NCBI RefSeq assembly: GCF_000186865.1
Contig: NW_008705601.1
Span: 3,884-33,035 of the forward strand
Length of the DNA stretch: 29,152 bases
Direction of reading: 5' to 3'
Source of the DNA: Aureococcus anophagefferens
Taxonomy: Eukaryota; Sar; Pelagophyceae; Pelagomonadales; Pelagomonadaceae
Position 1 is the first letter of the stretch. The number at the start of each line of letters is the position of its first letter. Made by a program: the position numbers and the translations under genes. Of the stretch, positions 1-18,430 are shown one piece after another. The notes below the pieces were generated by a model. That model was not told the DNA's origin. It saw only the letters and a list, made by a program, of their open reading frames with translations, and made no database searches.

Positions 1-72
1 ACATCAGTAGAGCCACCGTAAGCATGTAGCGTATATCTACTCATTATTACTGCGCCAATTCCCCGGGGCCTT

Positions 73-954
73 GTGTCGCTTCGCTGCAGCTTCCAGCTGC
101 TGTATCAGCGCGACCCTCCCCAATGCGATATTTATTTTGGCGCCCGTACTGGCGATCAGGGAATATACTTCACCTGTAGCCTCTCCCACTCTTCGTCTTC
201 TGTCTCTCGCCAGCAGGTAGTCGACGCAATGAATGCAAGGCCGCGGAGCGCGCGCCTTGCACCCGGGGGAGAAATCCTATTTGAGGATGCTATGAACTAC
301 CTGCGTTCACATGTCAGGGCAACTCTTTGTCATAGCCATAGCCGTTTTCACACTGGCGATCCGTACTTAAACAAGAAGAAGGGTACTACAGGTTATCTCA
401 CATCTGGTCCGGCACCCACCATCACCAGTGACATGAATGTAATCATTGATGTCACTCACAGGCATGAAAGCCCTAACGCGCCTGTCCATAGATATTTCAC
501 CACAGTGGAGGCTGCCAGGGCATCATCGTTTACTCCCGATTGTCTACAACGCCTACAGTCGATGGATGAAGAGACTGCCAGGAAAATGATTTCAAATGCA
601 ATTCCTAGGTTTATGCTCACAGCAGTGTACCTCACCGTATGTACACACATACTCGGAGGTGACATGTCAACACACAGTCTGTCCGCTTTCCTACATATAC
701 ATGCTCGACCACTGATGTGTTTGGGTGCTCATACTGAACTATCTTCTTCTGACGTAAGGGATAACATCTCAGACAGCAGGAAACACCGCAAGAAGAAGCA
801 TGCACCCAAAGCGCCTACTTCAGGATGGCGCCCATGTCCATCCCCAACGTCTAAGGAATATGCCGATTCCAAGTTCGCAGTGGACCTTTACCACAAGACA
901 ACACACAGATCCTGGCAACAGATAGAAGCGACATTGAAGCAGGCACCACACTAG
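73..954 (+). pseudogene. Element A polyprotein fragment: region before integrase plus integrase HHCC start
   Basis: This open stretch aligns throughout with element B residues of roughly 1125-1365. Shared landmarks are DIYFG (B: DVYFG), IRATLCHS-type and GPAPTITSD strings, HRY, NAIPRF, and the zinc-ligand pair in WYH/LYH-x3-HRSW. No standard family is recognised for the part before the integrase zinc motif. The stretch begins at a GTG in the middle of the domain, so this is not a real start; homology continues to the left in other frames. It ends at TAG 952-954 because of a frameshift: the sequence homologous to B continues in the -1 frame. It is therefore a remnant and not a functional gene. 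Confidence 0.8.
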
Positions 955-1128
955 GTTTCGATCTAAAACCAGGCGACAGCCGAATGATGAGTCCCTGTGC
1001 AGACTGTGAAGCAAACCAGAGTCAAATCCGAATTCCCAAACACAGTGACAGGTGGCATGAAAATGAAACCAATCATCTACCTATCCAAACCAAACTTGAT
1101 AGACCAATTTTCATCTCCTTTCCTAAAA
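955..1128 (+). pseudogene. Element A frame-shifted linker: integrase zinc motif fused to RT by deletion
   Basis: In the third + frame this stretch reads LGFDLKPGDSRMMSPC and continues through the CxxC pair (CADC) and WHENE. It then jumps directly to NHLPIQ and LDRPIFISFPK. In element B the two halves lie about 945 codons apart, so the integrase DDE core and the N-terminal RT motifs have been deleted. The frame ends at TAG 1140-1142, and the RT resumes in the first frame at GVDIRSD. A second, ~30-bp deletion has removed the sequence equivalent to B's HHSDIAQAF, which contains the first RT catalytic Asp. Confidence 0.75.
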
Positions 1129-2997
1129 GGTGTAGACATTAGGTCTGACTTGCTGAAAAGCATACAGGACAAGTTTCCAGACTCCAAGCTGGGAATCCGA
1201 TTGCTCAGATCCCTGTATGGCCTTAAACAGGCACCTATGTTATGGAATAAACTTTTGAATTCAGTCTTACTAGAAGCTGGCTTCATTCGCAGCAAGAATG
1301 ATACCAGTCTCTACATACATCATCATGAAGGTAAATGGGTTGCGTGTGCCGTATTTGTTGATGACATCTTGGTGACGGGGACTGACGTCAGCAAAATAGC
1401 GGAGCTGCGGAAACTGTTCCAAGAGAAATTCAAAGGAGAGCATCAATGGGATGAGAACATTAACTCCTTCCTGGGCATGGATATCTCGTATACTGACGGT
1501 GTACTCTCTATGAACGTCAAGGCCAAGATTGATGACTTGTTTAAGAAGTATCCTTTCCTAGCTAGCAGCAATCGTTGGTCTCAATCAACCTCTTCATCTG
1601 AAATCGACAACCCTCCGAGTTTAGATGATGACGAACTGTCGGACTATCAACTGCAGCTGAAGGAAAACTTCGCTAGCATAGTGGGATCCTGCATCTACTT
1701 CTCCATCACCTGCAGGCCTGATCTCTCCACCATTGTGTCCAAAGCATGCAAAGGCATGCATGGGCCAAAGAAAATTCACATACTTTATTTACAGGCCATG
1801 ATTCAATACCTTAAGGAGCACAGGGACCTCAGTCTTGTGTATCGCAAGAATAGCAAAGCCATTAGTCATATTGGTTCCCTGGCCGCTGCCTTTCCGGAAA
1901 TGAATGATGTCCCTAGTAGCCCAGTAGTGGGTTTCTCTGATGCCGATTGGCTGCCCAAGGCCTCAGATGGAGAGCAAATGAAAAGCACCTCCGGACACTG
2001 TTTCTATGTATTTGGTAGTTTAGTGCAGTGGAACTCAAAGCGTCAAACTATTACGGCAGCCAGTACAATGCAAGCCGAGCTGATTGCCGCGTCCTCGGCC
2101 GCTGACAGTGCCGTGTGGTATCATACTCTACAGTGCGATTTTCCATTTTTATTCGGTTTGAGCCAAGATATTCCAGCTATCCCTATCATGATTGACAATA
2201 AAGCTGCATTAAGCGTCGCAAACCATCCTGAATCCTCACCCAGAACAAGGCATATCTGTCTGAGAGAATTCCGTATAAGAGATATGCACGAGGCCAAGCA
2301 GGTACGGCCATACTGGTGCCCTGGCACCCATAATGTTGCAGACGTATTTACGAAGTTAGTACATAAAACATTGTTTCATAGATACTTGGATGTAATGGGA
2401 ATGGAAGGTTCAAATCGATTGCATTCAGACTACCCATCACTACAGGGGACACACAGGTCCTTTATGTCAGAAGGACTGCTTAGTGAGTGGGTGGTGTCTC
2501 ACAATTCACACATCGACGAGGACATAATATTTGAGTTGCGGAAGTCACTAGACTTCGAGTCCCCTCAGGCTGTGTACACCTGGGACTACTGGAATGCCTC
2601 GAGCGGTCAATTGCCTGACAATTATTGTAAAAATTTTGTATCATTACATTCCACTTCATTTTTGAATCCGCAGGAGTACAATCTCTGTGGCGATGGTCCT
2701 GTAAACACAAACATCCTCGAACACCATGGCTCTGACAACTCTTCCCCGTCCTCTCGTGCTAAGTTGAGTGTTGCTAAATTGCTTTACAAGCAGGGAATGG
2801 CAAAGAGAGCTACCAGGCTGGTGCAGGATCACCACCGCCGTGGACTGTCACCACCTGTTCCTTCCTGTCAGACTATAGTTGATGTAGACCCTTCGTTTGC
2901 AACACCTAACGCCCCATCTGCAGACTGGTCGCGCCTGTCTCGTGTAGTAGAATTGTTAGCTTGCGGTGCAATCTTATATCATGTCCTATATGCTTGA
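1129..2997 (+). pseudogene. Element A reverse transcriptase (partial) - RNase H - C-terminal tail
   Basis: The open frame covers the C-terminal half of a copia RT: RSLYGLKQAPMLWNK near 1207, and the catalytic FVDD box in AVFVDDILVTGTD near 1350. A Ty1-type RNase H follows with SDAD near 1940, MQAELIAASS near 2068, IDNKAAL near 2192 and GTHNVADVFTK near 2326. A tail of about 200 residues shared with element B follows, including RATRLVQDH and RRGLSPPVP, and ends in a hydrophobic segment (LLACGAILYHVLYA) before TGA 2995-2997. The reverse transcriptase lacks fingers and palm motif A, so it cannot be active alone. The frame is open at least from position 997, but the residues before 1129 are out of register with B. 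Confidence 0.85.
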
Positions 2998-3059: not shown

Positions 3060-3082
3060 AGAGAGATAGAGAGTTTTGTATC
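3060..3082 (+). repeat. Start of element A 3' LTR (interrupted by element B)
   Basis: TAGAGAGATAGAGAG follows directly after the polypurine tract CCAGGGGGAG (3050-3059). Element B has the same PPT followed by the same 15 bases where its own 3' LTR starts (read on the - strand from 3450). This fixes the LTR start of A. The LTR continues TTTTGTATC and is then cut by the B insertion. It should resume at 13061 after the second copy of GTATC. Confidence 0.75.
3078..3082. repeat. Target site duplication GTATC, left copy
   Basis: GTATC directly precedes the left LTR of element B. The identical 5 bp directly follows its right LTR at 13056-13060. Five base pairs is the usual copia integrase staggered cut. 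The duplication shows that B arrived by integration. Confidence 0.85.
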
Positions 3083-3450
3083 TAGAAAGTTAGGATAGTT
3101 TACTAGCTTCCTAACGTCGCTATGACGTCAGTCAAACTACTATCCAGCAGGTGCACTGTCCGGCGACTGTGCAACCTCGCTGAGCCTGGTGCTACCTGGC
3201 ACGTCGCTGTGACGCTAACCAGACAGACACCACAGACACAGAAGAGCGCTATGCACTCTGTGCCTGCTTGGCAGTCACTCCTTCAGTTCGCTGTCTATAA
3301 GACTCGAAACTGGATTAGAATGAATTAAGGAAGGGAAGGGAAAACTAGCAGGATACGCAGTAGGAGCGCAGTGGGGTAAGGTGCACTGCAACATCAAGAT
3401 GCAGTTCACTGTTCACTGAAGATGAAGATAGAAATCTCTCTATCTCTCTA
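3083..3450 (-). repeat. Element B 3' LTR
   Basis: This 368-bp repeat is collinear without gaps with 12688-13055 and differs by one base. On the element strand it begins TAGAGAGATAGAGAG and ends AACTTTCTA, so its termini are TAGA...TCTA and not the usual TG...CA. It contains a perfect TGACGTCA palindrome at 3123-3130, a bZIP/CRE-type site. The polyprotein ends at 3618 outside the LTR. Confidence 0.95.
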
Positions 3451-3460
3451 CTCCCCCTGG
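3451..3460 (-). other. Polypurine tract of element B
   Basis: On the - strand CCAGGGGGAG lies immediately upstream of the 3' LTR start TAGAGAG. This is the expected place for the primer of plus-strand DNA synthesis. The same ten bases precede the 3' LTR of element A at 3050-3059. Confidence 0.8.
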
Positions 3461-3617
3461 ATTGAAACTCCGTGTAAATCCCAAATGATAGTGGACTTCA
3501 GCTTCATCATGAATGGAGTCAATTAAGCGAATGAAGTAGATGGGAATCGAGTATCTGCTAAGTACACGTTCTTCAGAAGACCTTCCTTGATATGTGTGAG
3601 TTAAAAGATTGATACAC
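3461..3617 (-). other. Element B 3' untranslated segment
   Basis: About 155 bp lie between the polyprotein stop (3618-3620) and the polypurine tract. I see no ORF, repeat or RNA-like fold here. It corresponds in place to 2998-3049 of element A. Confidence 0.5.
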
Positions 3618-6600
3618 TCAACCAGTGTGATTACTTTGGGGATTGCTCATGACCCAAAGAAATACTATGCTCAACATGACACATTCGATACAAGTAGCCA
3701 AGGAAGCGTACTTATGATCGGTTAGTACAAACGGTGAGGTTATGTTAGATGTAGGTTGACAGTATGGAACGGGTGGAGAGAGTCCACGCCTGCGATGATC
3801 TTGCACCAATCTAGTAGCTCTTCTAGCCATCTCTTGTCTATAGAGAGTCCGGGCAACAGTCAGTTTGGACTTCACTGAAGCGCTGGGTCCGTCTTGATTC
3901 TCATTGCTTGGTTGAGGATTCAGAAGTGAGACAGAGTGATGGACTAGTAAGTTTTCTGCAAACCATCCAGAGTCTGCGCCGGCATTATATTGTGTCCATA
4001 GGGCGGTGGCTACTTGTGAGTCAAAGCTGTGGGACGTCATCCACTTGTAAATACTTTTCTCTTCATCTGGGTCGACCTTTTCGCAGATGCATTCCTTAAC
4101 GATGTCGTCTTCGTATTGGGGTGCTAGTAATGCATTTAAGGCTGGAAAAGGTGAGTGTATAAGGTTTGAGCCAGTCATCCCCATGACTGCGAGGAATCTG
4201 TGGTACAGAAGTTTAGGTAAAATTTTTGTAAACATGTCGGCCACGTTATGGGTGCCGGGGCACCAATATGGTCTAATTTGACCTGCTTCGTGAAAATCCC
4301 TGATGCGGAATTCTCTGAGACAGATATGTCTTGTTCTAGGAGACGATTCAGGGTGGTTCGCTACACTAAGGGCAGCTTTGTTATCAATGAGTAATGGCAC
4401 TGCTTGCGCCTCTTGAATACCAAAGAGGATTGGGAAGTCCACTTGCAGAGTGTAGTACCAGACTCCACTATCCGCTCCACTTGAGGCAGCTATGAGTTCG
4501 GCTTGCATTGTGCTCCCTGCAGTGATTGTCTGACGTTTGGAAGACCATTGTACTAAGTTTCCAAAACAATAGAAACAGAGACCTGAAGTACTCTTCATTG
4601 ACTCTCCATCCTGAGCCTTAGGGAGCCAGTCGGCATCAGAGAAGCCTACCACTGGGCTGGAAGGCAAATGGGTAAGTTCGGGATAGGTTTCGCTCAAAGC
4701 GAATAGTAGTGAAGCACCACTCCCCTGCTTGGTGTAAGTAAGTGCCAGGTCACGGTGTCCTTTCAGATACCGAATTAGCATCTGTAAGTACAGTATGTGC
4801 ACCTTCTTGGGTCCATGCATTCCCTTGCACGCTTTGGACGTAATAGTAGAAATATCAGGTCTGCACGTGATGGACAGATAGATGCATGAGCCAACAATTC
4901 TGGGAAAGTATTCTTTCAGCAGTTCTTGGTACTTCGTCAGTTTGTCATCGTCTGGCTCTGGTAGGTCGTCCAGGAGCGCGGAGTGCGGTGAATTTTGAGA
5001 GCGGCTATCTAGCTTAGTGTCTCCTAAGAATGGGAATTTGTCAAACATGTCATCGATCTTGGCTTTGACGTCCATGGTTAGGATTCCTGTCATGATGTCA
5101 TAGTAGACTGCCATTCCTAGGAATGAGTTGATGTTCTCATCCCATTGATGTTCTCCACGGAACTTGGCCTTGAACAAAGCCTTGAGCTCAGTGATCTTGC
5201 GAGTGTCGGTGCCGGTAACAAGGATGTCATCGACGAACACTGCGCACGCGACCCACTTTCCTTGAGACTCGTAGACGTAGAGACTCGTGTCATTCTTACT
5301 TCTGACAAACTTGGCCTCAAGAAGTACTGAGTTGAGTTTCTTGTTCCAGAGCATTGGTGCCTGTTTTAATCCATAGAGTGATCTAAGTAGTCTTATGCCC
5401 AGTTTGGAGTTCGGGAACTGCTCCTGCACTTTGTTGATCAGGTCTGCTCGAATGTCAACTCCTTTCGGGAAGTTGATGTAGATAGGTCTATCCAGGGTAG
5501 TCTGTATGAATGCCTGAGCAATGTCGCTGTGATGTATTGGTAGTCCATGGTGAACCGCCAAGGCCATGAGAGTGCGTGCTGTCGTCATGGATGATGCTGG
5601 ACTGTAAGTAGCATAGAAATCCAATCCTATTGTGGCGAGGAAGCCGCGCACTACACACCTTGCCTTGTACTTGTCGAAGGAGCCATCTCCCTTTCGCTTG
5701 ATCTTAAGCACAATCTTGGTGCTGATTGGAGAACGTTCTTCAGGGATTACCTCCAAACTGAAGCACTCGTTCCTGCACAGGTCAGCGAATTCCTTCATGA
5801 TGGCCTTTAGATATTCCCTCTTATGTTCTAGAGGCTCTGACTTAAGTTCTAGAATGGACTCTTCATCCAGCACGATGTCGTCTTCTTTGATCGTTACACC
5901 CTGACTGGTTGTTTCCTTTTCTATTACCATCTGTAGTGCTATTAGAACCTGGGAATGGTTGTCAAGGCAGTAATTTAGGACCTTTTCAACATTCTCCTCG
6001 TGTTCTTCACTGAAATGACTGGAGAACAGGTGATCAAGTGAGTCACCTGACTGGGTGACAATAGTGGGATAATTCCCTATCAAGTCGTAGACGCCTACCA
6101 GGGCTACATCCCACAATTGGTGAGCAGAGTCTGCCGCGGCGAGAATAGATTCCGCTCTGTCCCAGGCTTGGGAGGACTGAAGGTCAGTTGAGCTGAGGAA
6201 CGCGGTGTCAAGGTTGCTATGTCCGTCTATCATGCTGTTCATCCAAAACTTACCTTGAACGTCTGGGTGACCTACCTCGACTGTCTTGTTCCTCACTTCA
6301 TACAGGAGTTGGCTTCTGGTGCCTCCTAGTTCTACATATTCCTTTGGAGTTAAGGCTCGATCAATATTGTTGGGCGAGTTACATTTGATGAAACGCCTTG
6401 GTCGATCCTTTGTGCGCCTAAGTGTGCAACGATCATTTACATTTAAAATAGCTTGTAGCATCCTTTCTGCAATGATTTCTTCCTTCGGACATGGTATGTC
6501 AGCGATATGTTCGACCATGAGATCGGACAATTGTTGGGATGCTTCCATCATGCCTAGTAGTTGAAACTTGTCGCGGTACCCTGGGACACACTGGGTGGTA

Positions 6601-9600
6601 ATCCGCCGCGCAGCCTCAGAGTAATCATTGGTGGGGCATCCTGCGCTGGTGAAGAAGGAGACGTAAGTGTCATTAGGAGTGTGCTCGTCTGGTTGCATGT
6701 CCTGCACCTGAGTGATGGTAACAGATTCAGCTGGAGCTTCGGATGTTGCTTCTGATCCATCTGGATTTGCGAAATGCCAGACTGCTTTTGGATCTGACGA
6801 TGGTCCGAATTGTTTCTCTCTAAGGTCAAACTGTCTGTCTTCCTTTGTTTCTGGATCCCATCTTATAACTCGGATATCGCTGGCCTGGACTGTAGCTCCT
6901 GGAGTAGAATCAGAGAGCTGAGGCTTGGTTTTTCCTCTCATGATTTTGAATGGGGGAGTTCCCATCCATTCGCCATCTTTGCTTCTAATGCGTATTAGGT
7001 CGCCTACTTTGGGTTTCCTGAACTTTTGGGGACCGACCTTGGGACTAGAAGATGTGAATGGAGGTTCCTGAGTAGTGGAGGAAGGAGATGGTATCACTGT
7101 TGGTGAGTCTGGCCACAAGTCTCTTGGTGAGCCTCTGTCCGTGGATACTCGCCTTAGGAGACCAGACAGTTGGTCGTTTATATCACGATCGAGTTGAGAC
7201 ATAGGTGAATATGGATCCTTGTCACTAGCGTCTCGTAGCACAAGTTCTCTGCTAGACTGTGGTGTGGTTGTGAGTATCGGTGTAGAGGGAACGTTGCTCC
7301 TGGAGTCTTGTAGTACCAGCTGTCCGTCAGGTTCGGGAGGAGGTGTCGAAGGAACCGGTGTAGCCTGCCTTTGAGATGTGGCGGCTGGCTTTGGTTGTTC
7401 CTTGCGGCTATCGCTGCCTGGTACCAAGACGACGTTAGGCTTAGAGCTGGGGATTGTCCTGTCCGGTTCTTTGGGTATGAACGGGTTTGCCTGGTTTGGG
7501 TCTGTCATTTGAGACTTCAGGTATATCTGGTTTTGTTTAGACAGGCTTGTTGGTCTGAAGTTTGTTGTGGTGACGGGTTTCCCATTTGTTACGAGCATCA
7601 GAACTGACAGGGACGTGCTCTTTAGTTCAGAAAACCGTTCATGGTGATAGTTTGCAGGGTGCAAGTAAATAGCTGGAGTGGTCTTTAACTTTGACTTGTT
7701 CATGATGTCTCTGTCCTCTCCTCTTCCTGTAGTCTTAAGTTTAGACACATTGTTCACAAAGTCTACCTTGCATCCGAATGGGTACAGTGGTAGGTCCCTA
7801 AGTACCTTTCCACCAGACTCACTGCACAGTTGCCGAGGGGTTGTCCTGATTCCATATTTTCGCAGTATGGAGGAACTGGAACTTTGGTTTAACGAGCATG
7901 CCATGTGTCTGAATGCTTCTGGAAGGAACTGTTCTGGTACAATTGGCTTTCCAAGCACGTTCAATCCAGCCAGCTGCTGTATCCGTACCACCGCCCCATT
8001 ACGAAGGATCTTTATATAGTTCTCGGCGTAATTGTAGTTATGTAAATACGGGGGTAATGGTTCGATCTCGATGTTTAACCGCAGCTTCATCTGTAAGACT
8101 TTGTCACCATCCTTGAACGTTGAGAATGAGTCTGTGACTAGTAGCTTGAGTGTTATACCGTACTCAAGCTTTATCTGGTTGTAGACCTGAACGATGGCGT
8201 TGATGAAGTGATCGGCGTTAAGTCTCTTCATGCCTATGTCTATTACCAGACCGCTTCTTATGCAAACGCATACCAGTATGTAGGTGAATCCGTCTAGCAT
8301 CGATTTGACAGGGCTGTCCCATATGTCTATCATGAGAGCCTGCAACGGCGTATATCCCATTTCATTTTCATGCCAAGATGGGCTGTGATGAATGACTGGG
8401 ATTTGACCCTTGTTGGCCTCACAGATGGGGCACGGTGACATCATTCGAGTGTCTCCTGGTTGCAAACCTAGTGACTCATTGATGAGGATGTCATTCTCGA
8501 TCAGTTCCCAGCTTCTGTGTGTGATAGTGTGATACCAATCAACTTTTAGCTTAGCCTGAGCGTATTCCTCACTTGTAGGGTGAGGACACTTCCTCCATAG
8601 AGCCTTTGAGGGTTTTAGTGTGTACTTCCGCTTGGGATCCAATGTGGTTGCGTCCAATACTGCGGTGTCTAACGCTGTGTCCTTGTTGTCTGAGTTCTGC
8701 CTTGCTAAGCCAGTGATGTGCTTGTGTGCGCACATGTAGACGGCTATGAGAGTGAATCGGGGAATGGCATTACCTAGTAGCTTATACGCTTCAGCTTCGT
8801 CCAGGGATTCAAGCCTGCTCTCCGCGTCTGGAGTGAGACTTGTGGCTCTGGATCCCTCCTTTATTGTCATGTATCTGTGCACATGTTTGTACTCGGGAGA
8901 CTCTGGACTGCACCTACTCGACACATCGATAAGCATGTTGAAATCCGATGTGATAGTGGGGGCAGGCCCTGAGATCCTGTAGGCTGTCGTGCCTTTCCTG
9001 TTCCGTAGTTCAGGGTCATTTGTTTTGAACCTGCCGTAGGAGTGGCAAAGTGTGGCTCTTATCTTTGACCGAAGTGCATTTCTGGTATCTACATATCTCA
9101 CTCCCCCTGATGCCAAAATGCATGAGCCTGGCGAGGCAACGTTGAGGAAAGCCACAACGTCTGCCGGGCGAGGCCCGGGAGGAGAAGCCTTTGGCACGCA
9201 GCTAAAGTACATGAAGCGACCATCACGCTCTGTCCCAAAGTACACATCACCTTGTGCGGGGCGCAGGAATGTGACTTTGATCTCAAACATGGTTTCATGT
9301 CTCTGCCTATGTCGCATTTCGCGTGCCAGCAGAGTGAACACAAACGCTAGTGACGGGTTCTTAAGACCTTGATACCTGTACGGTTGAGGTCCATGGCAAC
9401 CAACCGTTATTGTCTTCCGCACTATCGTCGCTGGAGACAGCTCTTTGTGCTTCTTGGCGAACACCCACGCAAGCAACACACAGGCAAGAGCATTTTCGTG
9501 AGGGAGAATGCTGAGCATGTTGGTCTTTGATGTTTTCCATGCGTTAAAGAGAGTTTGAACGAGATCGGGAGCATGTTGCACAGGAGTGTCAAACACATAC

Positions 9601-12569
9601 AGGCTTTCAGGAATGGTATCCTCATCCTGCAATATTTGACTCAGTCCTTTCGGGAAGCAGGACATACCACTGTCCTTGCACACGTCAAACGATTTGATGG
9701 GGCTTGTACTCGCAAGTGCGAACCATCTGAATCTCGATTGGAGATCGCCAAGGGTGCAGCAGTCAACCTGATCAGTCTCAACAAAGTAGTTCATCGCCCT
9801 GAACTCTTTTATAACAGCGTCGTGTTCCTGGTAGTAGTCGACTCTTGTTGGGGTCATCTCATTAAGCACGTGTTTGGGTCTGACCAAACTGATAAACTTC
9901 ATTTGTTCCTCCGCGAAGAGATCTCCTGAGGGGTGATAGTTCCCACCGTTTTCGTCGCGCAACTGAGTGTTTTTATAGCAAGGGAATGAGCACACTAGTA
10001 GATCGAACTCCACTATGTTCAGTTTGTCCTGTTCAATGTCCTCGTTAACCTTGCGTATGTCATTCAGTGCTTGTGCATTTGGAAAGGTTTCCTTAGCATG
10101 TTCAAAGTTCTTCCCTACCTCGATGAATGAGACGATTTTGACGGGCATATCCTTGAACCCGTCTGTGCCTTCAGTGCACAGGCCTGGACCGATAAGACAA
10201 ACGCGGACTATTGTTTGCTCTTTGCTAAGTTCAGCGACTGCATCGCGATCTTGTCCATCGGTAGGTGCAGGATCTGGCGCCTTAGCAATGCCTTTATCTG
10301 AGCGCGGTTCCTCTGGCTGATCGTCTGCCTGTTGTCCGATTGCACCCATGCATAGCAGTGCTGAACTTCCTGCTCTTGCAAGGACCTGGCAGTATTTGAG
10401 TACATGCTTTTCCTGTTGAAGAGCTGTTCTGGGTATTTCAACGCCTGTCTTTAGATCGATTAGGCGATTAAAGTCATTAGGACTCGAGGTCGGAATGGTT
10501 TTGAGTCCGTTCCTTTGTCTTCGTATCCTTACCCAATTAGTTAACCCTTTCATTCTGGATGGGTTTGAGACATCAGTTATCGATACAGATTTTAGTTTCG
10601 GTACGTCCCTGTACATGAATCTGGCGTCCTTCTGGAACGTGAGTGTCCAGTTGGCCTGCTCGTAACTGTCCATCCCCATCAGTTGGAGGCCTTGATAGAA
10701 CTTTGGCACAACAAACCACTGAATAGCTTGTACTATACCTGTTCCTTGGTTGGCCTCGTCAACCAGACAACTTAGTCCAATGCCTGAATGTGTGGCATGG
10801 GTAGTCGTGCTTCCCATTTTTACCAATCGAGGTGGTTTCAGTTCTTTGATTGTGGAGGGTATTAGTTGACTGGTGTCTTGTGTAAATGGTGCTGTCGCGN
10901 NNNNNNNNNNNNNNNNNNNNNNNNNNNNNNNNNNNNNNNNNNNNNNNNNCTCAACATGGTAATCCTTGGAGGACAGTGTGTTGACGGTGTTCATGTAGGA
11001 GCTGTAGTTGCGTAGAACCTTTTGTGCTTCTAGCATGCGGCTTAGAAATTGACCGTATTCTCTGGAAGCTTGGGTCAATAGTGTAGTAACATTTTGGGCT
11101 GTGAACTGTCTTTTGTGGAAATTGATTGCCCTAGCGTGCAGCATATCAATATGTTTCTCTCTGTCAAAATCAGGTCCCATCTTGTCTTGCAGGATATTGA
11201 CTATCCGTTCCAGAGCGGTTACCCAATGCAGTACGCAGCCGCCTGACAGAATATCATAGTCGAGACTTAGAAGTTGATTCATGAGGTCTTCCAGTTCCTT
11301 GTCAGTGCCGACAGCATTAGCGCCTATAATTACTTTCTGCATCCACTGAAATACGCCATTTGAGACTTCTTCCTGTCCGAGATGTTTTTCCAGTAGCTCG
11401 TACTGGAGGTTAGTTGAGCTCAGTCTATCCATGCTCCCCCTATAAAAAATAAGAGTTAGTCTACTAGCTCTGACTGCGTTTTCCAAATGGAGTTCCTGAG
11501 TCATGAATCGAGATGAGTTCGGATTCTTGTTCGGATCCTTCCAGTCTGGGCACGAGTACTTTGGAATCACTGACTCATCCTCAAGAGGGATTGTCTCCTT
11601 GAGGATTTCTTTCATCCTGGCTTGTAGCGTATCAAAAGCTGTTCTCCCAAAGAGAATTGCCTGAGTGCCTATGTAGACGTAGCTGTAGCCTCTTCCACCA
11701 TGTGTACTTATGTCTCTTTCTCCATCATAGATTGAAACTATCTTCTTGGCTTCTTGCTGATATCTATGAAAGTAATCTGCACCATAAATGTACTCTTCCC
11801 ATGGTTTCTCAATGTCCGCTAGTCGGGAGAAGTTGATATTTTGCTGTTTGAACTTAGACAGTTGCAGCTCAGGGTTTATACCTACCTTGAAGTAATGTCC
11901 CTCCTCTATAGCAGCGTGTATGTGTGAGGTACGGTCACTTAGTAGTAGATGCTGAGGAAACTTGGGCGCCTGTCCATAGAACTCGTTTGTTGAAAGTTCG
12001 GGTCCGTGACTTCTTGGAAGCTGCTGTTGACCTGATGCTAGCGTGACGAGCCTAGGTTCTATCTGTGCTAATACTGTTTTGACTATGTCCTCTGTGTCAA
12101 CTGACTCTCCCTTTATTTTCAAGGCTTTGCCTCTAATGTCACTTAGTACGGTCTTCTGTTTTGCTTCAAGTATCTGCAAGTGTGTCTTTTGTGCAGCGTC
12201 CCTCTTCAGGTCAGCACTCTCTATGTCATCCACATGGTCGTGAAACTTGGCTGTGAGGCTGTTAAGACCGTCACTAAGGTTGTGCACCTGTTCCTTAAGA
12301 TTGGCTGCTTCTTGCTTTATGATACCGAAGTCTGGGAGTGACCTATGAAACTCATCCCTGAGACCATTCTTTACGCTCTCCAGTGATTCTGCTATACTGG
12401 CTTTGAAGCTTGTCTCAAATCGTTCAAGCGCAGATGTAACTGTGTCATCCAGCTGTTCTCTGAGCTCCTTCTGAGTGACATTTCGTCTGTCCTCAGCTTC
12501 CGCCGCTTCCGCGACTAGCTTTGCAACGCGTCTCTCGGCGGCCTCTTTCTCGCCACTTTCGGACGTCAT
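3618..12569 (-). CDS. Element B gag-pol polyprotein with embedded C5-cytosine methyltransferase-like domain
   Basis: One ATG-initiated frame of 2983 codons starts at 12569, about 120 bp inside the 5' LTR. The N-terminal ~530 residues are gag-like and begin with a charged coiled-coil segment, with no CCHC zinc knuckle visible. A 50-N gap follows. Near residue 604 is LVDEAN followed ~30 residues later by LQLMGMDSY, resembling a degenerate retropepsin. Residues ~786-990 hold the C5-methyltransferase motifs. Residues ~1000-1340 are an unassigned domain shared with element A. The integrase has HHCC (H1347, H1351, C1380, C1383) and a DD35E triad (D1415, D1480, E1516). The RT spans roughly 2270-2500 with FVDD near 2444. 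The Ty1-type RNase H spans ~2640-2780 (SDAD, QAELIAAS, IDNKAA, GTHNVADMF). A ~200-residue tail ends with a hydrophobic stretch. No frameshift separates gag from pol. Expected products act in the cytoplasmic particle and in nuclear integration. The polyprotein is about twice the usual copia length. Confidence 0.95.
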   Translation of the reverse strand: MTSESGEKEAAERRVAKLVAEAAEAEDRRNVTQKELREQLDDTVTSALERFETSFKASIAESLESVKNGLRDEFHRSLPDFGIIKQEAANLKEQVHNLSDGLNSLTAKFHDHVDDIESADLKRDAAQKTHLQILEAKQKTVLSDIRGKALKIKGESVDTEDIVKTVLAQIEPRLVTLASGQQQLPRSHGPELSTNEFYGQAPKFPQHLLLSDRTSHIHAAIEEGHYFKVGINPELQLSKFKQQNINFSRLADIEKPWEEYIYGADYFHRYQQEAKKIVSIYDGERDISTHGGRGYSYVYIGTQAILFGRTAFDTLQARMKEILKETIPLEDESVIPKYSCPDWKDPNKNPNSSRFMTQELHLENAVRASRLTLIFYRGSMDRLSSTNLQYELLEKHLGQEEVSNGVFQWMQKVIIGANAVGTDKELEDLMNQLLSLDYDILSGGCVLHWVTALERIVNILQDKMGPDFDREKHIDMLHARAINFHKRQFTAQNVTTLLTQASREYGQFLSRMLEAQKVLRNYSSYMNTVNTLSSKDYHVEXXXXXXXXXXXXXXXXXATAPFTQDTSQLIPSTIKELKPPRLVKMGSTTTHATHSGIGLSCLVDEANQGTGIVQAIQWFVVPKFYQGLQLMGMDSYEQANWTLTFQKDARFMYRDVPKLKSVSITDVSNPSRMKGLTNWVRIRRQRNGLKTIPTSSPNDFNRLIDLKTGVEIPRTALQQEKHVLKYCQVLARAGSSALLCMGAIGQQADDQPEEPRSDKGIAKAPDPAPTDGQDRDAVAELSKEQTIVRVCLIGPGLCTEGTDGFKDMPVKIVSFIEVGKNFEHAKETFPNAQALNDIRKVNEDIEQDKLNIVEFDLLVCSFPCYKNTQLRDENGGNYHPSGDLFAEEQMKFISLVRPKHVLNEMTPTRVDYYQEHDAVIKEFRAMNYFVETDQVDCCTLGDLQSRFRWFALASTSPIKSFDVCKDSGMSCFPKGLSQILQDEDTIPESLYVFDTPVQHAPDLVQTLFNAWKTSKTNMLSILPHENALACVLLAWVFAKKHKELSPATIVRKTITVGCHGPQPYRYQGLKNPSLAFVFTLLAREMRHRQRHETMFEIKVTFLRPAQGDVYFGTERDGRFMYFSCVPKASPPGPRPADVVAFLNVASPGSCILASGGVRYVDTRNALRSKIRATLCHSYGRFKTNDPELRNRKGTTAYRISGPAPTITSDFNMLIDVSSRCSPESPEYKHVHRYMTIKEGSRATSLTPDAESRLESLDEAEAYKLLGNAIPRFTLIAVYMCAHKHITGLARQNSDNKDTALDTAVLDATTLDPKRKYTLKPSKALWRKCPHPTSEEYAQAKLKVDWYHTITHRSWELIENDILINESLGLQPGDTRMMSPCPICEANKGQIPVIHHSPSWHENEMGYTPLQALMIDIWDSPVKSMLDGFTYILVCVCIRSGLVIDIGMKRLNADHFINAIVQVYNQIKLEYGITLKLLVTDSFSTFKDGDKVLQMKLRLNIEIEPLPPYLHNYNYAENYIKILRNGAVVRIQQLAGLNVLGKPIVPEQFLPEAFRHMACSLNQSSSSSILRKYGIRTTPRQLCSESGGKVLRDLPLYPFGCKVDFVNNVSKLKTTGRGEDRDIMNKSKLKTTPAIYLHPANYHHERFSELKSTSLSVLMLVTNGKPVTTTNFRPTSLSKQNQIYLKSQMTDPNQANPFIPKEPDRTIPSSKPNVVLVPGSDSRKEQPKPAATSQRQATPVPSTPPPEPDGQLVLQDSRSNVPSTPILTTTPQSSRELVLRDASDKDPYSPMSQLDRDINDQLSGLLRRVSTDRGSPRDLWPDSPTVIPSPSSTTQEPPFTSSSPKVGPQKFRKPKVGDLIRIRSKDGEWMGTPPFKIMRGKTKPQLSDSTPGATVQASDIRVIRWDPETKEDRQFDLREKQFGPSSDPKAVWHFANPDGSEATSEAPAESVTITQVQDMQPDEHTPNDTYVSFFTSAGCPTNDYSEAARRITTQCVPGYRDKFQLLGMMEASQQLSDLMVEHIADIPCPKEEIIAERMLQAILNVNDRCTLRRTKDRPRRFIKCNSPNNIDRALTPKEYVELGGTRSQLLYEVRNKTVEVGHPDVQGKFWMNSMIDGHSNLDTAFLSSTDLQSSQAWDRAESILAAADSAHQLWDVALVGVYDLIGNYPTIVTQSGDSLDHLFSSHFSEEHEENVEKVLNYCLDNHSQVLIALQMVIEKETTSQGVTIKEDDIVLDEESILELKSEPLEHKREYLKAIMKEFADLCRNECFSLEVIPEERSPISTKIVLKIKRKGDGSFDKYKARCVVRGFLATIGLDFYATYSPASSMTTARTLMALAVHHGLPIHHSDIAQAFIQTTLDRPIYINFPKGVDIRADLINKVQEQFPNSKLGIRLLRSLYGLKQAPMLWNKKLNSVLLEAKFVRSKNDTSLYVYESQGKWVACAVFVDDILVTGTDTRKITELKALFKAKFRGEHQWDENINSFLGMAVYYDIMTGILTMDVKAKIDDMFDKFPFLGDTKLDSRSQNSPHSALLDDLPEPDDDKLTKYQELLKEYFPRIVGSCIYLSITCRPDISTITSKACKGMHGPKKVHILYLQMLIRYLKGHRDLALTYTKQGSGASLLFALSETYPELTHLPSSPVVGFSDADWLPKAQDGESMKSTSGLCFYCFGNLVQWSSKRQTITAGSTMQAELIAASSGADSGVWYYTLQVDFPILFGIQEAQAVPLLIDNKAALSVANHPESSPRTRHICLREFRIRDFHEAGQIRPYWCPGTHNVADMFTKILPKLLYHRFLAVMGMTGSNLIHSPFPALNALLAPQYEDDIVKECICEKVDPDEEKSIYKWMTSHSFDSQVATALWTQYNAGADSGWFAENLLVHHSVSLLNPQPSNENQDGPSASVKSKLTVARTLYRQEMARRATRLVQDHRRRGLSPPVPYCQPTSNITSPFVLTDHKYASLATCIECVMLSIVFLWVMSNPQSNHTG
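9590..10215 (-). other. C5-cytosine DNA methyltransferase-like domain inside the element B polyprotein
   Basis: Motifs occur in the order of a C5-MTase. A motif I-like VRVCLIGPG...GTDGF lies near residue 786 and would bind S-adenosylmethionine. Motif II is SFIEVG, and NDIRKV stands for the (G/N)DI position. Motif IV is CSFPCYKNTQL with the catalytic Pro-Cys at 9978-9983 (P863-C864). Motif VI is VLNEMTP with the Glu at codon 9858-9860 (E904). Motif VIII is LQSRFRWFALA (Q944, R946, R948, near 9740). GLSQILQDEDTIPESLYVFD then resembles the usual start of the region after motif VIII. I do not see clear motifs IX and X, so the target-recognition end may be short, divergent or lost. Known reaction: methyl transfer to cytosine C5 in DNA. 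Whether this copy is active is inference from intact P-C, E and QxRxR residues. Confidence 0.8.
10900..10949. other. Assembly gap (50 N)
   Basis: Fifty N lie inside the element B polyprotein between the gag-like region and the protease-like region. The frame is the same on both sides if 50 is taken literally, but scaffold gaps of round size often have unknown true length. Any domain hidden here, for example a zinc knuckle, cannot be judged. Confidence 0.95.
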
Positions 12570-12687
12570 CTCTCCCCCTCAAAGCAAGCGCGGAGGCGAA
12601 AGCGAAGAGAAAAGAGCGCGAAGCGGGTAAAGAGAAGAGAAAAGAATGAAGCGAGGCTTCACAGGAGGCCGAGCGTCGGCCCACACC
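12570..12687 (-). other. Element B 5' leader with presumed primer-binding site
   Basis: This is the 118 bp between the 5' LTR and the polyprotein ATG. On the element strand the first bases after the LTR are GGTGTGGGCCGACGCTCGG, which is where a tRNA primer-binding site should be. It does not start with the usual TGG and I cannot match it to a particular tRNA. The rest of the leader, as read on the + strand, is unusually rich in AAGAGAAGAG-type purine repeats. Confidence 0.5.
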
Positions 12688-13055
12688 TAGAAAGTTAGGA
12701 TAGTTTACTAGCTTCCTAACGTCGCTATGACGTCAGTCAAACTACTATCCAGCAGGTGCACTGTCCGGCGACTGTGCAACCTCGCTGAGCCTGGTGCTAC
12801 CTGGCACGTCGCTGTGACGCTAACCAGACAGACACCACAGACACAGAAGAGCGCTATGCACTCTGTGCCTGCTTGGCAGTCACTCCTTCAGTTCGCTGTC
12901 TATAAGACTTGAAACTGGATTAGAATGAATTAAGGAAGGGAAGGGAAAACTAGCAGGATACGCAGTAGGAGCGCAGTGGGGTAAGGTGCACTGCAACATC
13001 AAGATGCAGTTCACTGTTCACTGAAGATGAAGATAGAAATCTCTCTATCTCTCTA
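12688..13055 (-). repeat. Element B 5' LTR
   Basis: This is the partner of 3083-3450, with one substitution in 368 bp (T at 12910). It has the same TAGA...TCTA ends and a perfect TGACGTCA at 12728-12735. As the 5' LTR it should carry the element's promoter. An A/T-rich TCTTATAGAC (element strand) lies near its middle, but I cannot define the transcription start. Confidence 0.95.
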
Positions 13056-13380: not shown

Positions 13381-16300
13381 CTAGTCATTGTGATGGCCCT
13401 CAAGACCTATAGCACGACAGTATTTCACAAAAGGCTCCCTAACTAGGGGCTTCGTAAACATGTCAGCTACATTGTTGGTGCCCTCGATGTGTCTTACCTC
13501 GAGTTGAGAGGAAGACTGGTACTCTCTTATCTTTAAGTACCGCATGTCAATGTGTTTTGACCTGCCTGAAGAAACAGGGTTGGAAGAGGTGTGAACTGTC
13601 CCGAGGTTATCACACAGAATGCGCGTTGCCTTCAGGGGTTCGTCTTTACCTGAAATAGCACAGTTCAGTTCTTGTATGAGGTTGCGTATCCAGATGGCTT
13701 CCTGGGCCGCGATGTTTAGGGCAATCAGCTCAGATTCATGTGTGGACGTGGCCAGTATAGGCTGCAGCTTAGATTTCCATGAGATCAAGTTGCCCATGAA
13801 GAAGAAAGTGTAGCCTGTCGTTGACTTCTTAGACTCTTCCATCTTTGGTAGGTGATCAGCATCGCTGGCGCCCCAGAGATCCTTACTGCACACAGGGTCA
13901 AATGCTCTAGGTGCATCAGGCGCCGGTAAGTCATGACTAGGTTTGATGATGCCTAAAGAGTCCCATTTATAGGAATCTTTCGGTACAAGATCAAGAAGAG
14001 TCTTGTCTTCGTGTGCGCTTGCTTTCAGGTGCTCAAAGATGGGATGCTTGTCACGGAAGTAAACTAGCTTCAGTCCCTTTGTCCCATTTAGATATTGAAG
14101 GAGTTCTTTAAGGAGGACCACATGTTGCTCGGTTGGACCATGCATGCCTCTGGAGACTCGACTTACAGCCTGAGTAATATCGGGTCTGCAAGTGATACTT
14201 ATGTAAATAAGAGAGCCAACAATAGATGCATAGTTCTTAGTATCATGAAGGTACGCCATTAACTCCTTGGGATCCTTGACAAGAGGTTTAGCATCCGATC
14301 TCATTGGGGTAGCTTTCGTCCCTATGCTGTTTAGGATTGTTCGTTCTTTGAAGAGTGCGTTAAGCTTCTCCTCAACGTCCATAGCAAGGCGCCCACGGTG
14401 GTTGTCATATTTGATGTTGATACCAAGGAAGCTGGACATAGGCTCAAACTGTGAGATGTTGAACTCAGCCTTAAGCTGGTTTTTGAGTTCGACTACCATT
14501 CTCGGTGAGCCACTGATAACAAGATCGTCCACTTCGCAAAGGACAAAGAGATTTTCCCGTAAGCCGTCTGATTGCACTTTGGTCTTGTGATACAAAGAGG
14601 TTTCCGACGTTGCACGCGTGAATCCTAACTTTTCAAAGAAGGATGTCAAAGCTTTGTTCCAAAGCTGTGGAGATTGTTTAAGTCCATAAAGTGCTTTGCG
14701 CAACTTAACAACGTCACCTGATTTACCGTTACGTTCAACAGTGACGCCTCTTGGAAACTTAAGATAGGAATCACCATCAATCTGACTTTGTATAAAAGCC
14801 TGTGGAATATCGCAGTGCCAAATATCGAAGCTTTGATTAACTGCCAGGGAGAACATCATTCGTACAGCGGTAAGAGAAGCCATGGGACTGAAAGTGCTAA
14901 AGAAGTCTACGCCAAGGCGCGCAAGAAAGCCGCGCGCAACGAGGCGAGCTTTGTGCTTGTCATAAGCTCCATCGGCTCTATATTTGACCTTGAGGACAAT
15001 TCGTGAGTCAATGGGTCTAGCGCGATCAGGCATAGGAACTAGTTCAAATGCACCAATAGAGCAGAGGTCATGTATTTCCTTTGCTATGGCCTCTATCATT
15101 TTGGGTCTTTGCTCAATTGGTGTCTTTGCTAGGTCTGCTAGCTTGCTCGTATCAATTCGAATGTCTTCCTTAGTGACAGTGTATAGGGCTAAGAAGATCT
15201 CTGTAGCCTGTGGAATCGCAGCTGCACCATCCTCAGTATTCTCAATGACTTGATTTGTCAAGAGAGTAAGGTAGTCCACTAGTTGTTCATGAACATCGTA
15301 GTTAGTTGCATAATGAGCTTCTGGATTCTTCACCAAACTATAAGAGTCATACTTGACTGTATGGTACTGATCATGTGTCATGCCTAACATATTGGCACGC
15401 TGGTAGTCCTCTACGAGATTCCGCTGTATTCTTGCCTCGCGTAAAAGTTTCTCGTCGCAAAGAGAGGATTTATCTGGCACTATCGGAGGTTCTGCTGAGT
15501 CTGACTGATAATAGCAAGCGTAAGCTTCACCTGCCATCTTGGGCATACCTTTTTCTCCCCCGGAGCTAAGCTTGCTCCAGTTAGCTCCGCGAGAGTACTG
15601 CAGAGCATAGAGCTCAGGGTCCAAGAAGCGCAGAATGCCATACCAAACATCGTTTCGGTAGTCCTCGTGAGTACCGCCGTAAGCGAAATACTCCGGCAGG
15701 GTCTTGGCGCGTCGGTACGCCTTATAGCGAGTGTGAGCACGCACATGATGAGTTGCGCCAGGCATGACGTAAACCTCAGCATTCGCCTCGAGTAACTCGC
15801 CAATAGAAGGAATCACAAGCAGAGACTCGTCCCAACGAGAGTCCGCCCTGCTGATGTCAGTGCCGAAGCTGAAACGTTGAACCGGCGAACGCCGGCGCTT
15901 ACGCAGGTGCCACGGGAGTGGCCGGCACTCAAGCGGTATATCCTTGTGCGCCTGCTCATATGTGTCGTCTTGATCGTAGTTGCCATCGGCCCCATATCGC
16001 ATGGGTTCTTCAGGGACGGGTGGGTGGGTTTCATTCCTTTCTTTCTGCTGACCATGTTCCATGTCAGCCCCTCCCCCGGAGTCCTCCTCTTCTGGAGAGA
16101 AAGCCGCTTCATTCGGGTTGTCCTTTGTATCCGGATAGTCACTTGGGTCCGGAACATATGACCTCCTAGGCACGTCATGTGCCTTGGCTATTTTGTTTCT
16201 TTGCCGATCTATCTGCATGGGATCCGGGTCCTTATTTAGGTCCATGTCGATATCGGACAGGGTTTGCTGGAATTCGTCTGAGGTGCGATGAATTGTCCTC

Positions 16301-18231
16301 TGAGTCCAGCCATGCCCATCAGAGACATCCGCCGTTTCTTCTTCAGGTGGCTGTGGTAAAGCAGGATCTAAGATTATTTTCCTGGTTCCATCATGAAGTT
16401 CATTGGATAGCTCGTATGGGAAGATCGCAGAGCCTGTGGTTCGAATCTTGCCATCATTGAACAGACATACCTGCGCTCTGGGCATGTCTGTGAACTTGTT
16501 CTTCAACGAGTTCATCCGGCCATGGATGAGGAAATACGCTGACTCTCTAACTTCACCGAGTGACCCATCGCGGTTCTCCTTCTGTACAAGACTGTAACAG
16601 AATTCGCCAAAAGGCTGGAGTGTCAGTTTGTGATGGCCAGTGTCACCAGTAAACAGTTGCCAGGGTGTTAGAACTACACCGTAACGTTTTTCTAGTGCTA
16701 CAGACGCGAGTGAGTTAAAGCTTTGACACGTGTGTTCCCAAGCCCATGGCCAGTAGTCATTTGTGTCTCTGATGTATCGATGATTCTTCAAGCGAGCTAG
16801 CTGCTGATCGAAATTACGGAGACGGACCCTAGTCCCTTTCTTACATTCATGGATGGAGGATTCAACCTCACCATTTTTCCAATGCATGTAAGGAGGGCAC
16901 ACTTCCAGGGTAACTCCAGTTTCATTGCGAAATGCAGCAATGCCATCGTCACTTCGAAACTCCATGTAAGTTGAAAACATGTCTGAGTACAGGTATTTCA
17001 GCTCATTGCCGGTGAATTGCTTAGAGTACGTTTTCACATACTCAAGTGCTTCACGGAACTCATGCGTTGCATTAGACCTCACATAGTAAGCGACTCTCGT
17101 CTTGCTGACAATGTCGATAAAGTTAAGCACATAGCGAAAACCCTGATGGGAGATATGAGTTAAGTCTGCCCCATCAAAAGAGTAGCCCTCACCAACGGAC
17201 AAGGAAACTTCTTTCTTGGGTAAGTTCTTGTTGAAGTGTCGGCGAGGGTTCTTATCGTTCTTGCAAATGGAACATTCCATGCAATTTTGCTTGTGCTTAA
17301 TATCACCAGGAAGAAGACGATGGTTGGTAGTACACTGCATTGTCTTAGCCGCAACGTCATTGTTACAGTGATAGATGCGGTGAAAGTCACGCATACGTTT
17401 CTTACTAGCAGCTTCAGTGGTATCGCGGGTAGTAGTATTGTGTTTTTCATCATCATCATCATCATCATGCTCCTCATCATCATGCTCCTCATCATCTGCG
17501 GAAGCAGAAGCAGAACCAATAGAAGTTTTGGGCTTTTTGGCAGGAGATGCATATTTTGACAATTGGATTTCAAACAATTCAATTTTATCCTCAAGTTCTC
17601 CAATTTCATTGTCAAGTTTCTCAATACGCGTTCCATAACTCTTAATCTGCTTCTTTGATTGAGCATTCTTACGATTGAGCTCTGCCAACTTTTCATTAGA
17701 CTGAGCGAAATCATCTCCATCAAACATCTCCTTTGCAACCAATTTCATCTCTTTTTCAGTTTCTTCAAACAAAGACACCAAGACGTTGGACTTCTCGGTA
17801 AACTCATCAGACTTCAGAGTTTTCTCAGCATGCTCCTTTTTGAGCACCTTGAGTGTCTTGTTCAGGGTTTTGATCGCTTCCATAGGACGTTTTTTGGGCG
17901 TGAACTTAACTTTAGCAGATTTGACGTGCTGAACAGCAACTGAATCGTCATCGTCGTCGTTGTCTGGCGCTTCTGGCACGTCTTCCAGCCCTTTGATGAC
18001 GTCGGGCGTCCAGAGCATCTTCAGCGACAACTCCGAGCCCTTGCTCTTGACGAGCGCCTGCTGCGACAAGTGCCCGAGCAAGACCGACGACTTCATCAAG
18101 CTCAGCGACAGCTTCTGCGCGGGCGCAAACTTTAACTTCTGCCGCGCGGCGTGCTCCACGAGCGAACAGAGCGCTTCAAGCGCTTCACGCTGGTCCATAA
18201 CATCGTAGCGCTTAATGAGTTGCGAGCTCAT
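13381..18231 (-). CDS. Element C copia polyprotein (gag-like - integrase - reverse transcriptase - RNase H)
   Basis: An intact 1616-residue frame starts at ATG 18231 and stops at TAG 13381-13383. The N-terminal ~280 residues are gag-like: hydrophobic/helical start, a lysine- and glutamate-rich coiled coil near 135-245, then a poly-Asp/Glu/His stretch encoded by a TCATCA microsatellite. Zinc-binding residues of the integrase follow near 300-325 (NH...KH...CMECSIC). The core has D in SFDGADLTH, D in YSDMFSTY and E in NGEVESS. The RT carries IVLKVKYRADG, WHCDIPQAFIQ, LYGLKQSPQLWNK and an EVDD box (CEVDDLVISG) in place of the common YVDD. RNase H has SDADHLPK, THESELIAL, LCDNLGTV and GTNNVADMFTKPL. 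I see no D[ST]G[AS] protease motif and no CCHC knuckle. Sequence and length differ clearly from A and B, so it is a separate copia lineage. The lack of stops suggests it is fairly young. Confidence 0.92.
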   Translation of the reverse strand: MSSQLIKRYDVMDQREALEALCSLVEHAARQKLKFAPAQKLSLSLMKSSVLLGHLSQQALVKSKGSELSLKMLWTPDVIKGLEDVPEAPDNDDDDDSVAVQHVKSAKVKFTPKKRPMEAIKTLNKTLKVLKKEHAEKTLKSDEFTEKSNVLVSLFEETEKEMKLVAKEMFDGDDFAQSNEKLAELNRKNAQSKKQIKSYGTRIEKLDNEIGELEDKIELFEIQLSKYASPAKKPKTSIGSASASADDEEHDDEEHDDDDDDEKHNTTTRDTTEAASKKRMRDFHRIYHCNNDVAAKTMQCTTNHRLLPGDIKHKQNCMECSICKNDKNPRRHFNKNLPKKEVSLSVGEGYSFDGADLTHISHQGFRYVLNFIDIVSKTRVAYYVRSNATHEFREALEYVKTYSKQFTGNELKYLYSDMFSTYMEFRSDDGIAAFRNETGVTLEVCPPYMHWKNGEVESSIHECKKGTRVRLRNFDQQLARLKNHRYIRDTNDYWPWAWEHTCQSFNSLASVALEKRYGVVLTPWQLFTGDTGHHKLTLQPFGEFCYSLVQKENRDGSLGEVRESAYFLIHGRMNSLKNKFTDMPRAQVCLFNDGKIRTTGSAIFPYELSNELHDGTRKIILDPALPQPPEEETADVSDGHGWTQRTIHRTSDEFQQTLSDIDMDLNKDPDPMQIDRQRNKIAKAHDVPRRSYVPDPSDYPDTKDNPNEAAFSPEEEDSGGGADMEHGQQKERNETHPPVPEEPMRYGADGNYDQDDTYEQAHKDIPLECRPLPWHLRKRRRSPVQRFSFGTDISRADSRWDESLLVIPSIGELLEANAEVYVMPGATHHVRAHTRYKAYRRAKTLPEYFAYGGTHEDYRNDVWYGILRFLDPELYALQYSRGANWSKLSSGGEKGMPKMAGEAYACYYQSDSAEPPIVPDKSSLCDEKLLREARIQRNLVEDYQRANMLGMTHDQYHTVKYDSYSLVKNPEAHYATNYDVHEQLVDYLTLLTNQVIENTEDGAAAIPQATEIFLALYTVTKEDIRIDTSKLADLAKTPIEQRPKMIEAIAKEIHDLCSIGAFELVPMPDRARPIDSRIVLKVKYRADGAYDKHKARLVARGFLARLGVDFFSTFSPMASLTAVRMMFSLAVNQSFDIWHCDIPQAFIQSQIDGDSYLKFPRGVTVERNGKSGDVVKLRKALYGLKQSPQLWNKALTSFFEKLGFTRATSETSLYHKTKVQSDGLRENLFVLCEVDDLVISGSPRMVVELKNQLKAEFNISQFEPMSSFLGINIKYDNHRGRLAMDVEEKLNALFKERTILNSIGTKATPMRSDAKPLVKDPKELMAYLHDTKNYASIVGSLIYISITCRPDITQAVSRVSRGMHGPTEQHVVLLKELLQYLNGTKGLKLVYFRDKHPIFEHLKASAHEDKTLLDLVPKDSYKWDSLGIIKPSHDLPAPDAPRAFDPVCSKDLWGASDADHLPKMEESKKSTTGYTFFFMGNLISWKSKLQPILATSTHESELIALNIAAQEAIWIRNLIQELNCAISGKDEPLKATRILCDNLGTVHTSSNPVSSGRSKHIDMRYLKIREYQSSSQLEVRHIEGTNNVADMFTKPLVREPFVKYCRAIGLEGHHND
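17447..17496. repeat. Trinucleotide microsatellite (TCA)n / (CTCATCATCATG)n
   Basis: A run of TCA units followed by two copies of a CTCATCATCATG-type 12-mer. It lies inside the element C ORF and encodes an Asp/Glu/His-rich linker on the - strand between the coiled coil and the integrase. Confidence 0.85.
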
Positions 18232-18339
18232 CGCTGCCGTCTATAGCGCCTGCCCGCTTTTCCCGGTTCGGGCTAAGATATATCTTTCGGCAGCCTTATT
18301 ATTTTACCCCCCGGCGAACTAATCCCGCTAAGTATTTAC

Positions 18340-18430
18340 CTATAGTTTTGCCCCCCTTATTGTATCTTAGTTATTTTATCCTATTTATGGATAAAATAAC
18401 TAAGATACAATAAGGGGGGCAAAACTATAG
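18340..18430. repeat. Perfect inverted repeat: 42-bp arms, 7-bp loop
   Basis: 18340-18381 and 18389-18430 are exact reverse complements, separated by TATTTAT. Each arm begins CTATAG at its outer end and contains a run of six C (or G). The 91-bp unit could form a strong hairpin or cruciform. It lies between the element C leader and the short ORF whose last ~16 codons fall in it. It may be a foldback/MITE-type insertion, an LTR terminal structure or an assembly fold-back. I see no convincing target duplication. Confidence 0.95.

Follow-up and report, generated by a model that had tools for sequence, protein, structure and literature searches.

In this work, we describe a Ty1/copia long terminal repeat (LTR) retrotransposon of the pelagophyte alga Aureococcus anophagefferens whose pol frame includes a domain that is, with near certainty, a C5-cytosine methyltransferase (MTase). 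The element, termed here family A, lies on the minus strand of a stretch of 29,152 nucleotides (contig NW_008705601.1, positions 3,884 to 33,035, assembly GCF_000186865.1), the whole of which is referred to as the window. Cytosine methylation is normally a weapon of the host against transposons. For this domain we favor, at a probability of roughly 0.55, a predicted role in methylating the DNA newly reverse-transcribed from the element itself. A first-pass annotation of the window had proposed a copia element with a C5-MTase-like domain, and both parts of this proposal are upheld by the reverse transcriptase (RT) match to RVT_2, the LTRs, the target site duplication (TSD), the polypurine tract and the match to PF00145. 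The element comprises the following parts.

3083..13055, minus strand: whole copia element of family A, assembled length 9,973 bp (LTR pair and TSD; gap size from the copy on contig C49)
13056..13060, minus strand: TSD GATAC, 5' side, 5 bp, directly outside the element end
12688..13055, minus strand: 5' LTR, 368 nt with TAGA...TCTA ends (LTR pair alignment)
10950..12569, minus strand: Gag-like part up to a run of N, with Met at frame residue 4 (putatively Gag, from its position)
3618..10898, minus strand: pol frame, extending from the N run through its stop codon
10230..10898, minus strand: protease part, by eye (its LDSGAT site falls in the N run here and is readable in the C49 copy)
8679..10226, minus strand: C5-cytosine methyltransferase domain, frame residues 785-1300 (PF00145, motif alignment, profile-profile match and fold match)
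7179..8543, minus strand: integrase part (DDE_3 at 21.7 bits, below the cut-off of 28.6; D/D/E pattern by eye)
5034..5771, minus strand: reverse transcriptase RVT_2, frame residues 2270-2515 (139.5 bits, cut-off 31.6)
3451..3460, minus strand: polypurine tract CCAGGGGGAG, adjoining the 3' LTR
3083..3450, minus strand: 3' LTR (LTR pair alignment)
3078..3082, minus strand: TSD GATAC, 3' side, 5 bp, directly outside the element end

The identity of the domain was established from profile, motif and fold comparisons. PF00145 matches the whole frame at 40.4 bits (residues 807-958) and an excised 621-residue part of it at 44.9 bits, against a gathering cut-off of 22, so that the profile check proposed in the first-pass annotation came out significant. 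The motifs of the family were located as follows, those from motif II onward by motif alignment.

10167..10190, minus strand: motif I-like GPGLCTEG, a divergent S-adenosylmethionine-binding loop (GPGLCTE is kept in the family B protein P0008)
10110..10127, minus strand: motif II FIEVGK, with the acidic residue
9966..9983, minus strand: motif IV PCYKNT, with the catalytic Pro-Cys
9849..9863, minus strand: motif VI NEMTP, with the catalytic Glu
9723..9740, minus strand: motif VIII QSRFRW
8946..8969, minus strand: motif IX GPAPTITS
8757..8777, minus strand: motif X LGNAIPR, with the usual R-x-x-T-x-x-E before it

The GPG, the motif II Glu, the Pro-Cys, the motif VI Glu and QSRFR thus stand in one open pol frame where they had been annotated (the earlier residue numbers, counted from the Met, equal ours minus 3). 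The annotated span of 9590-10215 was too short for the domain, which extends over approximately 8679-10226, and motifs IX and X, described as apparently lacking, were found beyond it at 8946-8969 and 8757-8777. The suggested compact enzyme devoid of IX and X is ruled out by GPAPTITS and LGNAIPR. Motifs IV, VI, VIII, IX and X are present in order, with approximately 250 residues between VIII and IX, and the ordered-motif pattern, which was written after the sequence had been seen, matched 0 of 20,000 shuffles. A chance string of motifs is ruled out by this result together with the PF00145 score and the profile-profile match. The predicted fold, at low confidence, matches C5-MTases from motif I through X; the model shows a predicted class I MTase fold in which motif X folds back, and the arrangement that the first-pass annotation had named as contrary to its proposal, with the catalytic residues far apart, did not appear. 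The lists of fold matches are led by the DNA MTases 8yf3, MET1, HaeIII and HhaI, and DNMT2 chains are also among the matches. Motif I is likely a variant loop, as GPGLCTE is kept from family A to family B and the fold match begins at residue 3 of the model; its canonical form is a common C5-MTase feature that is unnecessary for the PF00145 score.

The family A element is a Ty1/copia LTR retrotransposon by its RVT_2 domain, LTRs, 5-bp TSD and polypurine tract. Its two LTRs of 368 nt differ by 1 mismatch, and the element is young, apparently a recent insertion. It was inserted into the LTR of an older plus-strand element (window positions 1 to approximately 3077), because the polypurine tract and LTR start of the latter form the 3' flank. 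The integrase-RT order fits Ty1/copia, and the sister family C gives an rve match of 20.4 bits, below the cut-off. No Pfam family above cut-off was found in the Gag and protease parts of family A, and no primer-binding site of the element was identified. A minus-strand frame of 2986 codons (3618-12578) bridges a run of 50 N between Gag and pol, and this run corresponds to 997 bases between the same anchors in the C49 copy. In that copy, Gag (824 codons) and pol (2500 codons) occupy frames of different phase that overlap by 67 nt, which rules out a single Gag-pol frame of 2986 codons; the pol part including the MTase is untouched by this correction. The two C49 frames occupy L025:5374-7845 (Gag) and L025:7779 onward (pol), with no Met before the protease site and the first Met of pol at residue 102. 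LDSGAT, which we take to be the usual copia protease active site, was seen by eye in the C49 pol frame directly before the pol part that is visible in the window. Because Gag and pol overlap in different phases, pol is probably made by frameshifting from the Gag frame, and the C49 copy is a candidate -1 frameshift element. The MTase sits between the protease and the integrase in pol.

Codon comparisons show purifying selection on the domain. Between family A and a diverged copy on C29, whose domain is 94.3% identical, the NG86 method over 557 codons gave dS 0.382, dN 0.028 and a ratio of 0.073 (bootstrap 0.044-0.105). For the same pair, the constraint is strongest in the catalytic core (0.032; 0.011-0.063), with values of 0.104 between motifs VIII and IX, 0.133 in the IX-X part (interval 0 to 0.50) and 0.093 in the integrase. 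The C29 copy is devoid of Gag and RT parts within the 15,001 bases examined. Since dS along the pair varies strongly, from 0.92 to 0.11, and the LTRs are 98.9% identical, the pair is a mosaic, and the ratio is a safe result where the age is not. The family C MTase gave a dN/dS of 0.174 (one pair, 278 codons). Over 223 codons, two family D copies are separated by 6 non-synonymous and 0 synonymous changes, which are too few for a ratio and would sooner argue against constraint on D than for it. The comparison of A with B (226 codons) gives no ratio, as dS is saturated. The C49 copy sits on a contig that is a nearly identical duplicate, with 2 mismatches in 10,901 columns, and was therefore not counted as independent.

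The genome (49.05 Mb in 86 contigs) was searched for relatives of the domain. The 15 matches to the domain region include the window and C49, which represent one near-identical locus, the diverged C29 copy, a fragment on C1 and the family B loci L005 and L006; PF00145 matches at 14 places. The first protein search returned only two matches, both hypothetical proteins of A. anophagefferens (94% identity over 37% of the query and 41% over 61%). No long polyprotein relative was found at E <= 0.001 among 7990 candidates scored, and viral contigs scanned with the family A domain, the bacterial P0011 and D/E/F gave no relative. Two further copia families are represented in the window itself.

22..951, plus strand: older family B element, C-terminal half of the MTase (48% identical over query residues 367-620; L006)
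991..2994, plus strand: older family B element, RT part (RVT_2 67.9 bits)
13384..18240, minus strand: family C copia frame without MTase (RVT_2 161.7 bits; RT identity of 95% with the family C copy that bears an MTase)
18321..18641, minus strand: remnant of a decayed MTase around motif IX, lying upstream of the preceding frame (69% identical, 4 internal stops)

Because the decayed motif IX remnant stands upstream of it, the window copy of family C has probably lost its MTase. The MTase-bearing family C copy (contig C31, L030:4463-10000) has PF00145 (31.7 bits) and RVT_2 (158.4 bits) in one frame, and the two copies form a natural pair with and without the domain, the window copy carrying a new acidic N-terminal segment. 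Copia family D (L034:3101-8626 on C1; L035 on C50) gives 50.8 bits for PF00145 and 96.3 bits for RVT_2. The copia-like element E (L033:1814-7300 on C4) gives 51.6 bits for PF00145; its RT part reads N, and its rve (15.3 bits) and SH3 (14.5 bits) matches are below cut-off. Families D and E carry a more canonical C5-MTase. The retroelement-like frame F (L041:4499-9691 on C49) scores for PF00145 20.4 bits by hmmscan, below cut-off, and 24.4 bits in the genome search; by eye it ends in a putative tyrosine-recombinase-like part, and Pfam searches on both of its flanks found neither RT nor recombinase. A profile built from D, E and F finds M.HhaI with an E-value of 2.8e-15.

The RT identities are 70% between A and B, 36-38% between A and C and 23% between A and D, and the MTase identities are 43-48% (A-B) and 23-25% (A-C). 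From 80 loci on genome contigs, 40 were used in the alignments A5 and A6 and 24 in a tree, which contained no eukaryotic DNMT3 reference. The MTases of A, B and C form one clade (support 99/99.6), as do those of D, E and F (85/95). Given these identities and the A/B/C clade, the MTase seems to have been inherited with the A/B/C copia lineage. One clade of A, its C29 copy, B, C, D, E and F was not rejected (p-AU 0.45; long branches, bootstrap unsettled), and comparison of the A/B profile against D/E/F gave no match (probability 1.3). The A/B/C and D/E/F MTases may go back to one or two captures.

Since the MTase lies within Pol and would be packaged with the RT and integrase, methylation of the element's own DNA is its most likely role. 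The enzyme would meet the cDNA before integration and, if active with DNA as its substrate, would act in the particle or pre-integration complex. Cytosines of the fresh cDNA would become methylated, and the new insert would arrive already methylated; a host DNMT5-type SNF2 enzyme would keep the mark after integration. The methylated insert may then be hidden from defences acting on unmethylated DNA, or its expression may be damped to a tolerable level.

Several observations weigh against the proposed identity or role. Canonical motif I (FxGxG) is absent, with GPGLCTEG in its place, and the PF00145 match begins at profile position 16, past motif I, so that Pfam misses it. The AF2 model of the domain has a mean pLDDT of only 38.3. 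Searches against PDB with profile A7 (families A and B only) gave no MTase, phmmer with a single family A domain reached at best E 0.5 to M.HaeIII, and phmmer with the family C domain found in PDB one chain, which is unrelated. The domain may be dispensable, because the window copy of family C lost it yet keeps an open integrase-RT frame. The CpG observed/expected ratio is 0.66 in family A versus 1.17 in window positions 18241-29152, 0.82 in the MTase-less and 0.78 in the MTase-bearing family C copy, 1.33 in D and 1.28 in E; the depletion does not track the presence of the MTase and is thus unsupported as a signature of self-methylation. In yeast, no activity was seen for the LINE and Gypsy versions of retrotransposon-borne DNA methyltransferases (DNMTs), according to the relevant part of PMC5890265. 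Between the two A copies, substitutions are more frequent at CpG (37 of 186 positions) than at GpC (27 of 232), an excess that would be explained equally by host methylation.

Four other explanations of the domain were weighed. The MTase fold could have been kept with loss of catalysis, serving Pol as a module for nucleic-acid binding or assembly; the divergent motif I would fit this, as would the change of PCQ to PCY in families A and B and the ECQ at the same place in the distant family D. We consider it unlikely, since the Pro-Cys, the motif VI Glu, RxR and motifs IX and X are retained in A, B (P0008) and C, and since the catalytic core is the part under the strongest constraint. Methylation of RNA, either that of the element or its primer tRNA, in the manner of DNMT2 on tRNA, is suggested by the DNMT2 chains among the fold matches and by the RNA methylation that de Mendoza et al. 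proposed for the LINE version, in the part of PMC5890265 that treats it. DNMT2 is not prominent, however, with 8yf3, MET1, HaeIII and HhaI at the top of both fold lists, and the long stretch separating VIII from IX is suggestive of a DNA target-recognition domain, which makes an RNA substrate improbable. A functionless passenger, carried by chance, would agree with the family C copy that is devoid of the domain; it is hardly credible, as dN/dS contradicts a passenger or decayed domain, the frames are open in diverged copies and the domain is common to the sister families A, B and C.

The enzyme could also act in trans on the host genome, with the elements supplying de novo methylation that a DNMT5-type host enzyme only maintains. 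The genome has a host-type frame that is DNMT5-like with SNF2, six of the seven PF00145 places in frames of at least 1000 residues fall in the element frames A, D, E and F, and DNMT5 is a maintenance methyltransferase in Cryptococcus, as stated in the relevant text of PMC10538959. Against this, the host appears to have at least two further MTase genes, L037 (PF00145 178.4 bits) and L038, which looks like another such gene in pieces, and a six-frame search can miss spliced DNMTs; action in trans is therefore doubtful. In its broadest form, retrotransposons would be the de novo methylation machinery of this pelagophyte genome: several families of copia, together with a putative tyrosine-recombinase element, would carry MTases of at least one and perhaps two origins, while DNMT5 maintains. 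We regard this as a long shot; if true, the elements that methylation is thought to silence would themselves seed its patterns.

The family A element can be compared with several known systems. The sections of PMC5890265 on such elements, from 2018, describe DNMTs in LINE and DIRS elements of Symbiodinium and in Gypsy elements of Klebsormidium, report Symbiodinium Copia elements without DNMT, and cite Iyer et al. 2011 for DNMTs linked to RT. The first-pass annotation had named this paper as precedent, and it is one for retrotransposon DNMTs in a dinoflagellate and a charophyte but not for copia. SymbioDIRS-Dnmt3, SymbioLINE-Dnmt and KnitGypsy-Dnmt3 resemble the present case, as these sections describe them, in a C5-MTase within a retrotransposon frame, in several families and at Ka/Ks < 0.2 (here 0.073 for A and 0.174 for C, one pair each). 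Those elements are of the LINE, DIRS and Gypsy types and come from dinoflagellates and a charophyte, whereas the present one is Ty1/copia, has a stramenopile host and carries its MTase between protease and integrase. Among the published versions, the DIRS and Gypsy ones affiliate with the DNMT3 clade, and CpG depletion is tied to the DNMT in the LINE one. According to the same source, SymbioDIRS-Dnmt3 makes de novo CG methylation in yeast, and Dam-type adenine MTases of DIRS are also retroelement-borne DNA MTases, of the unrelated adenine class. Copia is named as a DNMT carrier in one phrase of a 2025 paper (PMC12344493: 'DNMT3 members ... within LTR Copia and DIRS'), which cites the 2018 paper, where the charophyte element is called Gypsy; the relevant section of PMC12344493 has no pelagophyte element. 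Beyond that phrase, no description of a copia or pelagophyte DNMT element was seen among the open-literature matches listed, a scope outside which most subscription papers and all preprints fall. With M.HhaI, M.HaeIII and M.MpeI, the family A domain shares the motif order, PC, the ENV-type Glu, RxR, motifs IX and X and the predicted fold; it differs by its divergent motif I, PCY for PCQ, the long VIII-IX region and its place in a polyprotein. The element would add copia, and a third lineage of algae, to the published LINE, DIRS and Gypsy cases. Copies of the same RT lineage with and without the MTase offer a natural comparison for what a transposon gains by DNA methylation, and the source of new methylation in DNMT5 genomes becomes directly testable.

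Other features of the window include two protein-coding regions.

21176-22825, minus strand: Cys-loop ligand-gated ion channel-like protein (PF02931 27.4 bits)
27051-28520, minus strand: PARP catalytic domain protein (PF00644 53.7 bits)

A 182-nt repeat pair, at 21307 and 21700, lies within the channel-like region. Another pair of 82 nt, 93% identical (23095-23176 and 28539-28620), could be a non-autonomous element. An isolated inverted A/B RT fragment at 23416-23613 is 92% complementary to positions 1596-1793.
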